Assembly: GCF_000732325.1 (NCBI RefSeq)
Contig: NZ_BBIW01000009.1
Coordinates: 186,001-250,000 of the forward strand
Length of the DNA: 64,000 bases
Source of the DNA: Paenibacillus sp. TCA20
Lineage (GTDB): Bacteria; Bacillota; Bacilli; Paenibacillales; Paenibacillaceae
Direction of reading: 5' to 3'
Part shown: positions 60,929-64,000 of the stretch, piece after piece
Layout: every line of letters begins with the position of its first letter
How positions within the stretch are numbered: position 1 is the stretch's first letter
Notes under the pieces: generated by a model
Told to the model about the DNA's origin: nothing
Database searches by the model: none
The model's input: the letters and a program-made list of their open reading frames with translations, nothing else
Made by a program: the position numbers and the translations under genes

Positions 60929-60971
60929 AAATTTGAGCAAGGACGCTCATAGAATAGAAGGGAGACTAATC

Positions 60972-62858
60972 ATGGCAACAAAGCAGTTTAAGGCCGAATC
61001 CAAGCGCTTGCTGGAGATGATGGTTAATTCTATTTACACGCAAAAAGAGATTTTTCTAAGAGAGCTTATCTCCAACGCCAGTGATGCGATCGACAAGATG
61101 TACTATAAGGCATTGGTCGAGGATCAGCTGACATTCAATAACGAGGATTACTTCATTAAGATTATCGCAGATAAAGAAAACCGCACGCTTACGATTTCTG
61201 ATACAGGAATCGGGATGACGCAGGAGGAGCTGGAGAATAACCTCGGGATCATCGCGAACAGCGGATCTTTTGCGTTCAAGAGCGAGAATGAACTGAAGGA
61301 CGGCCACAACATTATCGGTCAATTCGGGGTCGGCTTCTATTCCGCGTTCATGGTTGCGGATGAGATTACAGTGATTACGAAGGCTTGGGGCAGCGATCAG
61401 GCCTATAAATGGCAGTCTCAGGGCGCAGATGGATACACGATCGATCCTGCTGACAAGGAGAGTGTGGGCACCGATATCATTCTTCACATCAGAGAGAATA
61501 CGGAAGAGGATTCTTATGATGAATTCCTGGAGGAGTATCGTCTTAGAACGATCATCAAGAAATATTCCGACTTCATTCGTTATCCGATCAAGATGGACGT
61601 GAAGACGCAGAAGCCGAAGGAAGATGCGGAGAACGAGTTCGAGGAAGTTACCGAAGAGCAAACCGTAAACAGCATGGTTCCGATCTGGCGGAAGAACAAG
61701 AGTGAGCTGACAGATGAAGACTATGAGAACTTCTATTTCGAGAAACGCTACGGCTTCGACAAGCCGCTGAAGCACGTACATATCAGTGCTGACGGTGCTG
61801 TTGTGTACAACGCCATTCTGTTTATTCCAGAGAAAACGCCGTTCGACTATTACACCAAGGAATATGAGAAAGGCCTTGAGCTCTACTCCAACGGTGTATT
61901 GATCATGGATAAATGCGGAGATTTGCTGCCGGATTACTTCAGCTTTGTCAAAGGGATGGTCGACTCCGAGGATCTGTCCTTGAACATTTCCCGCGAACTG
62001 CTGCAACATGATCGTCAATTAAAGCTGATCGCGAAGAACATCAAGAACAAGATCAAATCTGCGCTGCAATCCATGATGAAGGATGAGCGTGAGAATTATG
62101 AGAAATTCTACGAATCGTTTGGCAGACAGCTTAAATTTGGTGTATACAACGATTATGGCATGAACAAGGGCGATCTTCAGGATCTCCTGCTGTTCTATTC
62201 ATCCAAGGAGCAGAAGCTGGTCAGTCTGGCTGAATACGTCTCCCGTATGCCGGAGGATCAGAAATATATTTACTATGCAACAGGTGAGTCCGTACAGCGT
62301 ATCGAACGTCTGCCGCAAACCGAGCTCGTGGCGGATAAAGGCTATGAAATTCTCTATTTCACCGACGATGTGGATGAGTTCGCCATTAAGATGCTGATGA
62401 ACTATCAGGAGAAAGAATTCCGTTCCGTATCAAGCGGCGATCTTGGATTTGAAGCAGATAGCAGCGAAGAGGAAGCAGAAGCGAAGGAATCCGAGAACAA
62501 GGAATTGTTTGAGAAAATGCAGGAGCTCTTGAGCGGTAAAGTGAAGAGTGTCAAGGCTTCCAAGCGTCTCAAATCCCATCCGGTCTGCCTATCCGCCGAC
62601 GGTGAAATCACCATCGAGATGGAGAAAGTGCTGAATGCGATGCCGAATGCCGACGGCCAGCAGGTCAGAGCCGACAAAGTGCTGGAGATTAATGCGAATC
62701 ATGACGTGTTCAGTGCATTGAAGCAGGCGTTTGAGAATGATCAAGATAAATTCGCGGTGTACACCAGCGTTCTGTACAACCAGGCGCTGCTGATTGAAGG
62801 TCTTCAGGTAGAAGATCCCGTCGCGTTCACGAATGATATTTGCAAAATCATGGCGTAA
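60972..62858 (+). CDS. htpG: Chaperone HtpG (Hsp90)
   Basis: A 628-residue Hsp90. The ATP-binding domain has [20 protein letters not shown] and [16 protein letters not shown] and [15 protein letters not shown]; the middle domain has [26 protein letters not shown] precedes ATG 60972; an in-frame ATG at 60933 lies too far upstream. It folds and maintains client proteins in the cytoplasm. The perfect CIRCE element in front places it under HrcA control, unlike B. subtilis htpG, which is not a CIRCE gene. It is monocistronic, with a terminator after the stop. Confidence 0.98.
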
Positions 62859-62860
62859 GG

Positions 62861-62889
62861 TTTACTACAGCTTCATGCCACGTTAAAAT
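62861..62889 (+). promoter_or_regulatory. Candidate promoter of the leader-rlmA transcript
   Basis: TTTACT, 17-bp spacer, TAAAAT, starting three bases after the htpG stop. Transcription would begin near 62896, inside the htpG terminator hairpin. Confidence 0.45.
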
Positions 62890-62922
62890 AAAATGAGAAC
62901 AGAGGTTTCTGTTCTCATTTTT
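62890..62922 (+). terminator. Terminator after htpG
   Basis: AAAATGAGAACAGA pairs with TCTGTTCTCATTTT over a 4-nt loop, followed by further T. The 3' arm GTTCTC can alternatively pair with GAGAAC at 62933-62938, next to the leader ribosome binding site. Confidence 0.88.
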
Positions 62923-62943
62923 CTATTTTAAGGAGAACGACGT

Positions 62944-62973
62944 ATGCTAATTCAATTCATTCGCTATCGTTAA
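62944..62973 (+). CDS. Nine-codon leader ORF, possible attenuator peptide
   Basis: MLIQFIRYR, with AAGGAG nine bases ahead of ATG. It ends in Arg-Tyr-Arg, a form of the Arg/Lys-x-Arg/Lys motif at which macrolide-bound ribosomes stall on other resistance-gene leaders. A terminator-like hairpin follows 21 bases later and the rRNA methyltransferase gene after that. The ORF is too short to prove coding by composition. Confidence 0.45.
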   Translation: MLIQFIRYR

Positions 62974-62993
62974 TGAGAGGTACAGATTATAAG

Positions 62994-63038
62994 TAAGCCC
63001 AGGCGTTTTTAAAAATAACAAGCCAGGGGTTTATTTTT
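62994..63038 (+). terminator. Terminator-like hairpin between leader ORF and rlmA (possible attenuator)
   Basis: TAAGCCCAGGC pairs with GCCAGGGGTTTA (one A-A mismatch, one bulge, one wobble) around a 17-nt loop, followed by TTTTTC. It lies upstream of rlmA, so it would stop transcription before that gene unless opened. Confidence 0.6.
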
Positions 63039-63086
63039 CTGTGCCTTTTTCATTCCTACGATAAATGAATGAACGGGGTGTACTAC

Positions 63087-63971
63087 GTGTTGAATTCTCA
63101 TATGATTCATTTGCTTCGTTGTCCCGTGTGTCACGGAGTAATGGATTTAAAGTCTGGAAAAAGCTTGTTTTGTCCACAAGGACATACTTTTGATATATCG
63201 AAATTTGGTTACATTAATCTGCTGCTGCGTGCAGTTAAAACCAAATATGATCGCACGTTATTCCGTGCACGCAAGCAGCTGATCTCCGCTGGCAAGCTTG
63301 AACCGCTCATTAAGGCGATCACGGTAGGCATGATAAATCACTTACCGGATCACTTTCTGTACAATAAGGCTTCCGAACCGAATATGCTGCTGGATGCCGG
63401 ATGTGGCGAAGGGTCATTATTAATCCAGCTTCAGCAGCAGCTTGTCTCCCTGACGAGACATGAATGGTGTGGCGTTGGGCTCGATATTTCTAAGGAAGGA
63501 ATCTTGCTCGCAGCCAAGGAAGACGCGGATAACCTCTGGTGCGTCGCTGATTTGGCCAGAATGCCGTTTAGGAGCAGCAGCTTTCCTTGTGTTCTGAATA
63601 TTCTGTCACCGTCAAACTATGAAGAGTTTCACAGACTGCTTACAGATGATGGCATCATCATTAAGGTTATTCCGGGCAGCGGGTATTTGCAGGAGCTGAG
63701 AAGCCGATTCTATGAGCATACGGCGCAGCAGGCGTACGATAATATACGTACAATCGAGCATTTTTCCTATCATTATCACATGATTCATGAGGAGAAGGTA
63801 AGCTATACGCTTCAGCTTAACACAGAGGAAATGGCTCACTTGGTGCATATGACACCGCTGACCTGGGGAATTGCAGAACATAAGCTGAAGGAAGCTCTCA
63901 AGGAGCAGAGCATTACTTTTGAGTATCATATTTTGTATGGAACAAAGAAGAATAACAACTTAAAGATATAG
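63087..63971 (+). CDS. rlmA: 23S rRNA (guanine-N1)-methyltransferase, RlmA type
   Basis: A 294-residue SAM-dependent methyltransferase. The N-terminal zinc finger is LRCPVCHGVMDLKSGKSLFC with C-x2-C and C-x2-GH (PQGHTFD), followed by KFGYINLLLR, the RlmA signature; DAGCGEGSLL is the SAM loop and VLNILSPSNYEEFHRLL the later catalytic strand region. RlmA(I) acts on G745 and RlmA(II)/TlrB on G748 of 23S rRNA, in the macrolide exit-tunnel site; which of these applies here is not clear. GGGGTG lies eight bases before GTG 63087; an ATG at 63069 lacks a ribosome binding site. Confidence 0.88.
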   Translation: MLNSHMIHLLRCPVCHGVMDLKSGKSLFCPQGHTFDISKFGYINLLLRAVKTKYDRTLFRARKQLISAGKLEPLIKAITVGMINHLPDHFLYNKASEPNMLLDAGCGEGSLLIQLQQQLVSLTRHEWCGVGLDISKEGILLAAKEDADNLWCVADLARMPFRSSSFPCVLNILSPSNYEEFHRLLTDDGIIIKVIPGSGYLQELRSRFYEHTAQQAYDNIRTIEHFSYHYHMIHEEKVSYTLQLNTEEMAHLVHMTPLTWGIAEHKLKEALKEQSITFEYHILYGTKKNNNLKI

Positions 63972-63985
63972 AAGGTGTGATTCCA

Positions 63986-64000
63986 TTGAAGACGGTGGCT
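63986..64000 (+). CDS. Start of the next gene, cut by the window edge
   Basis: GAAGGTGTG is followed by TTG AAG ACG GTG GCT, which would start MKTVA. Only five codons are visible, so nothing can be said about function. Confidence 0.35.

Follow-up and report, generated by a model that had tools for sequence, protein, structure and literature searches.

The region upstream of rlmA in the window (the whole stretch of 64,000 nucleotides analyzed here, from a Paenibacillus-like genome) is very probably an antibiotic-responsive attenuator of the tlrB type (rlmA/yxjB), judging from its likeness to the system already known from B. subtilis, of which the window is a further case. By the same analogy, its likely inducers are 16-membered macrolides and not erythromycin. 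The same leader was also found upstream of alpha/beta-fold macrolide esterases in other Bacilli, an arrangement that is new relative to the literature searched.

The B. subtilis gene yxjB has been renamed tlrB and encodes RlmA-II (Yakhnin et al. 2019, mBio, PMC6851288). As described in the main text of that paper, which also sets out an R/K-X-R/K motif, the tlrB leader encodes the peptide MIIQFIRYR and ends in tandem stops. Ribosomes bound by tylosin come to a halt at RYR, Tyr occupying the P site and Arg the A site, whereas with erythromycin neither a toeprint nor induction was seen. In the proposed scheme, the halted ribosome keeps both a NusA-dependent terminator and a hairpin sequestering the Shine-Dalgarno sequence (SD) from being completed, and NusG-dependent pausing provides time for leader translation. 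Induction was eliminated without the leader start codon and virtually eliminated when RYR was changed to AYA; the SD hairpin was mapped, and a translational fusion stayed silent in the absence of drug and was induced in its presence. Like tlrB, the window has a nine-residue leader ending in RYR, tandem stops and an RlmA gene downstream, as well as a terminator base just past the stop codons, an apex hairpin with a T-rich stretch, and a predicted leader-SD pairing; the two leaders differ by a single residue, Leu2 in the window for Ile2 in B. subtilis. With the window, the tylosin switch proven in B. subtilis probably reaches to a Paenibacillus-like genome and to numerous relatives. The word Paenibacillus is absent from the main text of PMC6851288, the supplementary tree of 180 leaders lying outside the search.

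Organization of the leader region and rlmA

The leader lies downstream of htpG (60933-62858, matched by the HtpG model), and the elements from the promoter to rlmA are all on the + strand. A weak candidate promoter of the leader transcript (TTTACT-17-TAAAAT, consensus score 9/12) is located at 62861-62889; two promoter-like sites were seen against 2.8 expected in shuffles, and the count of such sites is in itself no evidence. Directly 3' of htpG, a predicted 14-bp hairpin with a T-rich tail (62890-62921) is most simply the htpG terminator. Its 3' arm holds GTTCTC (62911-62916), for which an alternative pairing with GAGAAC had been put forward in the earlier note as a second switch. This proposal was not borne out, as the hairpin holding GTTCTC is kept in the fold of 62861-63070 (z -7.20 against dinucleotide shuffles), and a hairpin just 5' of the leader is no general family feature. 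Among 37 diverse rlmA loci the median z of this upstream region was -0.4, with ten below -1.5 and the window lowest at -6.54, and among 13 diverse esterase loci it was -0.61, with two below -1.5.

As the earlier note described, a strong ribosome binding site (SD AAGGAG, 62930-62935) precedes a nine-codon ORF encoding MLIQFIRYR (62944-62973). The ORF starts with ATG at 62944 and stops with TAA at 62971-62973, and an adjoining TGA gives tandem stops (62944-62976 in all); the RYR arrest motif corresponds to codons 7-9. Element A (TTCATTCG, 62956-62963), within codons 5-7, is predicted to pair with element D upstream of the rlmA SD, and its conservation is consistent with this. Downstream follows the predicted intrinsic terminator (62975-63050), also supported by covariation, with a base formed by 62978-62986 and 63038-63046. 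Its hairpin arms span 62975-63045 and are followed by T5 (63046-63050); the terminator-like hairpin with T5 reported earlier was thus recovered, and it folds far better than shuffles. An apex stem-loop is predicted at 62991-63036, with a T-rich TTTATTTTT in the apex region (63030-63038). In position it corresponds to the NusG-pause hairpin described in the main text for B. subtilis (PMC6851288), and it may have the same role. Element C (TTTTTCATTC, 63046-63055) is predicted to extend the terminator by pairing with the stop-codon context, and an alternative pairing with element D and the rlmA SD is also predicted to be possible. Element D (TGAATGAA) and the rlmA SD GGGGTG (63075-63080) together occupy 63066-63080. 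The predicted fold of 62922-63100 has an energy of -57.6 kcal/mol (z -6.46), and none of 200 dinucleotide shuffles was equally good. Rfam gave no family at gathering score over the whole window; a single opposite-strand match at E <= 1 (21.2 bits against a gathering score of 50) was taken as chance.

The downstream gene (63087-63971) encodes a 23S rRNA (guanine-N1) methyltransferase of the RlmA family with 294 aa and a GTG start, identified by Pfam and by its relatives. That this gene is rlmA, as had been claimed, was confirmed by an RlmA zinc ribbon (Zn_ribbon_RlmA over cut-off) next to a methyltransferase domain, and by 1p91, ribosomal RNA large subunit methyltransferase A (E. coli-type RlmA), as the sole PDB sequence matched. 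The NCBIfam hits to RlmA-I (151.4 bits against a cut-off of 303) and to three G748 enzymes (at most 100 bits) all stayed below their cut-offs. The gene downstream of the leader is of the RlmA family and not an Erm (A2058 N6 methyltransferase) gene. The most likely start is GTG 63087; ATG 63069 was considered and is unlikely, with the SD GGGGTG at 63075-63080 and an ATG in the relatives L005 and L006 at the place of GTG 63087. Five nt past the rlmA stop begins a protoporphyrinogen oxidase-like gene (63977-64000 in the window; 2391-3791 in L003), which may be co-transcribed with rlmA and hence co-regulated by the leader.

Conservation of the leader and selection on peptide and RNA

In order to follow the leader through the genus, the RlmA protein was used as query against 75 congeneric genomes. 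A near full-length match (E <= 2e-48) turned up in 33 of them, and the leader was present in all 33 (30, plus G051, G053 and G071), so that the conservation of the leader ORF asked about in the earlier note was found. A strict DNA pattern for MIIQFIR.R matched 30 of the 75 genomes, once each and within ~200 nt of the rlmA match. The three remaining RlmA genomes carry variants, namely MLIQFIRYR in G000 (the window's own) and G031, and a TTG-started LIIKFIRLR in G023. The strict pattern gave no match in the other 42 congeneric genomes, one of which (G008) holds broken RlmA pieces only, and its reversed control gave none in the 75. The leader is not a chance feature, since it occurs once per genome just 5' of rlmA in 30 of 75 genomes and the reversed control never does. 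With its Leu2, the window leader falls outside the strict pattern and inside a looser class-wide one; among 99 leader loci, Leu2 is shared with one other only (L005).

At class level, 110 RlmA matches were obtained, from which 100 loci were examined (30 given with the search and 70 fetched) and 95 parsed; the remaining ten matches comprise eight of the window's genus and two others. In the parsing of the genome sets, five of 103 rlmA loci and one of 30 esterase loci were left out. A leader of the general kind was found in 30 of the 95 parsed loci and none by script in 65, and the switch is therefore an optional and not a constant attachment to rlmA in Bacilli. Divergent class-level leaders include MVMIQFVR[NY]R, M[ST]MSPQF[MI]RYR and MGIHFIRIR. 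Those in L115, L124, L133, L116, L123, L130, L148, L095 and L125 keep a C-terminal R-X-R, and they offer natural variants for tests of drug specificity.

Codon usage was counted in 76 rlmA-type leaders of the form.II[QK]FIR.R. Arg9 is constant over five codons (CGT 19, AGA 19, CGG 18, AGG 16 and CGA 4), as would be expected if the peptide matters, and the Ile codons 2 and 3 alternate between ATC and ATT. Codons 5-7 are near-frozen as TTC-ATT-CG (TTC in 74 and ATT in 73 of the 76, with codon 7 always CGN), and their pairing partner is CGAATGAA 5' of the rlmA SD. Such freezing is expected if TTCATTCG must also pair with CGAATGAA.

Covariation was assessed in 24 diverse rlmA leaders out of 80 sequences, with their own consensus as the structure, which favours it. 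In the terminator base 97.7% of cells were paired, with two-sided changes at four of nine pairs; the 8-bp helix between leader codons and SD region had 99.0% paired and no two-sided changes. Both helices together gave 98.3% of cells paired against 33.9-52.1% with the partner slid. In 500 shuffles the observed cells paired, cells with a two-sided change and covariation score were never matched; the number of pairs with a two-sided change was attained in 11 of them and the number of further pair types in 44. A permutation test was made on 14 diverse loci, taken from the 72 of 80 whose elements could be delimited. The stop-codon context covaries with its pairing partner past the T run (0/300 permutations as good), and the leader codons do not covary with the SD region (105/300 as good). 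A terminator-like hairpin was detected by script in 75 of the 80 rlmA-type loci, so the hairpin as well as the leader proved conserved. Its base is at leader nt 34 or 35 in 73 of these 75, which is where a ribosome halted at codon 8 would have its front edge. A TTNTTT motif, present in 79 of 80, is only consistent with a NusG-dependent pause of the B. subtilis kind. Each of the 80 rlmA-type leaders is more stably folded than its shuffles (z -3.5 to -11.0, median -6.25).

Proposed mechanism and rival explanations

The model for this locus joins the leader, gene, conservation, structure prediction and covariation established here with drug-dependent stalling, termination, NusG pausing and methylation, which were demonstrated in B. 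subtilis and which we infer for the window's organism. Without drug, MLIQFIRYR would be translated and released and the terminator (62975-63050) would halt many transcripts, and in read-through RNA translation would be limited by leader codons pairing with the stretch 5' of the rlmA SD. Once tylosin or another 16-membered macrolide occupies the exit tunnel, the ribosome would stall, Tyr8 being in the P site and Arg9 in the A site, and its front edge would lie over the first bases of the terminator 5' arm (about 62980-62982). With this arm covered, transcription would read through and the leader-SD pairing could not form; RlmA would be made and would methylate 23S rRNA (at G748 if the enzyme is RlmA-II, as in B. 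subtilis). Combined control of this kind is also described in the text searched for the B. subtilis vmlR leader, where RNA polymerase pausing goes together with transcription attenuation and translation attenuation; vmlR differs in being an ABC-F gene and in its drugs, pleuromutilins, lincosamides and type A streptogramins (PMC9226507). That stalling at RYR blocks the terminator and turns rlmA on, as the earlier note suggested, has been proven in the homologous tlrB leader according to its main text, where tylosin is the proven inducer and erythromycin, also named in the note, gave no induction or toeprint (PMC6851288). Such a stalling and attenuation model is supported here, by analogy, by the conservation of leader, terminator base, geometry and gene with the tlrB system. 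What the note overlooked is a proposed second layer of control, SD sequestration by leader codons pairing with the region 5' of the rlmA SD.

This second layer was probed by mimicking a stalled ribosome in equilibrium folding, with pairing of leader nt 1-38 forbidden, at the 75 of 80 rlmA-type loci where SD exposure was measurable. Counting changes above 0.1, the rlmA SD became more paired in 70 of the 75 and less paired in none, and its median unpaired probability fell from 0.26 to 0.04, because CC-T5-CATTC pairs with GAATGAA-n-GGGG. This alternative SD-sequestering pairing (63044-63055 with 63067-63079) is predicted across the family, and as a local hairpin in the window it has -10.8 kcal/mol. 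The predicted leader/SD-region pairing is conserved, yet masking leaves the SD unfreed in these equilibrium folds; as far as equilibrium goes, this modelled result counts against the translational part of the model. Since the translational fusion was induced in B. subtilis, either kinetics, a translating ribosome or RNA remodelling overrides the re-pairing, or relief of termination does most of the work. As a selected third state, the hairpin between the post-terminator element and the SD region was set aside; it is thermodynamically available and not clearly selected (23/300 permutations as good).

In the leaders of erm genes (ErmDL and its kin), which precede a 23S rRNA methyltransferase gene, macrolides cause arrest at a +x+ motif, and the window resembles them in both motif and position. 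The likeness to ErmDL drawn in the earlier note stands for this motif, but the closest relative of the leader is that of tlrB, and the Erm leaders have another peptide, another methyltransferase and probably another drug specificity. An Erm-type attenuator responding to erythromycin or ketolides by ErmDL-like arrest is accordingly suggested by the shared +x+ motif and is highly improbable: the downstream gene is RlmA, not Erm; a one-residue variant of the leader showed no erythromycin induction or toeprint in B. subtilis, according to the main text of PMC6851288; and the leader also stands before esterases, of which six tested family members raised the MICs of 16-membered and not of 14-/15-membered macrolides. 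It is hardly credible that rlmA is unregulated, with a common htpG terminator ahead of it and an intervening ORF due to chance, for although 65 of the 95 parsed class-level rlmA loci have no recognisable leader, its conservation, codon pattern and association with rlmA or esterase genes argue against chance.

A pure transcription attenuator, in which termination alone is regulated and the SD pairing is incidental, appears unlikely. It would agree with the finding that, at rlmA-type loci, masking the stalled ribosome leaves the SD unreleased at equilibrium, and with the terminator base being the site of clearest covariation. Against it, codons 5-7 are frozen down to their nucleotides and form pairs with the stretch ahead of the SD, the stop-codon context and the post-T-run element covary with 0/300 permutations as good, and according to the main text of PMC6851288 the SD hairpin of B. 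subtilis has been mapped, with the translational fusion staying silent when no drug is present. The tlrB-type attenuator, acting on both transcription and translation, is the reading retained here. Sequence constraints across the relatives can guide mutational tests of it.

The same leader upstream of macrolide esterases

The looser class-wide pattern was run over 398 genomes and matched 30 places in 28 of them, 25 beside RlmA matches and five elsewhere, with zero matches for its reversed control. All five non-RlmA places lie about 135-142 nt 5' of an alpha/beta hydrolase ORF of 282-303 aa. One such hydrolase scored 483.3 bits with the NCBIfam model for alpha/beta fold macrolide esterases (cut-off 420) and stayed below the cut-offs of narrower models (BCA family, 501.2/570; EstT, 367.8/450; also EstX, CBF and BRB). 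Its best PDB match was EstT (11tu, whole length, 452.6 bits). Counting the homologs that came with a locus, 14 of 15 esterase homologs at 66-100% identity in the 398 genomes have an SD with MII[QK]FIRLR or MNIHFIRLR, and the fifteenth (L172) shows a degenerate leader trace only. Of two homologs at 57-60% identity, one has MIIKWIKQR and one no leader, and at 51-55% identity no leader was found in the 12 parsed (L179 left out). A family-wide pattern, which allows Lys4 and GTG or TTG starts and demands a stop codon, gave 45 leaders in 45 of 245 genomes. In 38 cases the leader precedes rlmA and in seven an esterase; none stood before any other gene in these genomes, and the reversed control was zero. 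Among the 38 rlmA copies, three (L213, L237 and L239) give matches in pieces or in part and seem broken or truncated, as though rlmA were decaying behind an intact leader. Leader-esterase loci are spread over many Bacilli, further genera of the window's family among them; MII[QK]FIRLR precedes esterases in L154-L158, L159-L171 (MNIHFIRLR in L171), L173, L224-L228, L232 and L233. In the window's own genome, no macrolide esterase gene was detected at E <= 1e-30.

The esterase leaders keep the frozen codons (TTC and ATT each in 16/17), and their alignment retains stretches like GGGTTTATTT, TGTGCC-T run and CGAATGAA, so the leader regions of rlmA and of the esterases appear related. Weaker RNA structure is predicted for the esterase type, with a median z of -2.5 (range -4.8 to 0.4) against -6.25 for the rlmA type, and a terminator-like hairpin was found by script in 9/19 esterase loci against 75/80. 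No two-sided changes were seen in the esterase leader-SD helix. Masking, measurable in 13 of the 19 esterase loci, raised SD exposure in four and lowered it in six. At the esterase loci the leader is well supported, and the attenuator, judged from modelled folds, less so. The BCA/EstT-type esterases, treated in the main text of PMC12704417, resemble the window in their leader, MII[QK]FIRLR in other Bacilli, and in the related hairpin region, and differ from rlmA in hydrolyzing the drug and in their weaker, more variable predicted RNA structure.

Tests of six Gram-positive esterases from this superfamily, among them BCA-1, showed raised MICs for 16-membered and not for 14-/15-membered macrolides (Zhou et al. 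2025, main text, PMC12704417). A leader common to rlmA and macrolide esterases supports a 16-membered-macrolide sensor, and MII[QK]FIR[YLF]R with its hairpin region is probably a portable cassette of this kind, placed before methylation by rlmA/tlrB and hydrolysis by EstT/BCA-type enzymes. One drug-sensing leader would then seem to serve two unrelated enzymes against the same drug class. If this holds, Gram-positive macrolide esterases would be drug-induced via ribosome stalling, a regulation absent from the literature searched, and the esterase leaders would use RLR as their form of the arrest motif. The natural variants RYR, RLR and RFR, and Q or K at position 4, make the drug specificity of arrest testable. 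The prediction that these esterases are inducible also implies that susceptibility tests without prior drug exposure could miss them. The main text of PMC12704417 contains no word beginning with regulat, attenuat or rlmA and no 'leader peptide', and in the text searched of the EstX paper (PMC11214618) none of attenuat, leader or regulat occurs. In the text searched of PMC12190993, 'macrolide esterase' and 'leader peptide' both appear and are not connected. In the literature searched (subscription papers and supplements outside), MIIQFIR was found in PMC6851288 only and MIIKFIR nowhere.

Among the viral contigs of IMG/VR, eight leader matches were found, seven of them before an esterase with nearly identical DNA. 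The eighth (L258) has no esterase gene and ends in Ser, not Arg, and was taken as chance. The seven leader-esterase contigs (L253-L257, L259 and L260, the gene being cut by the end of the stretch in L260) may represent either phage cargo or host flank.
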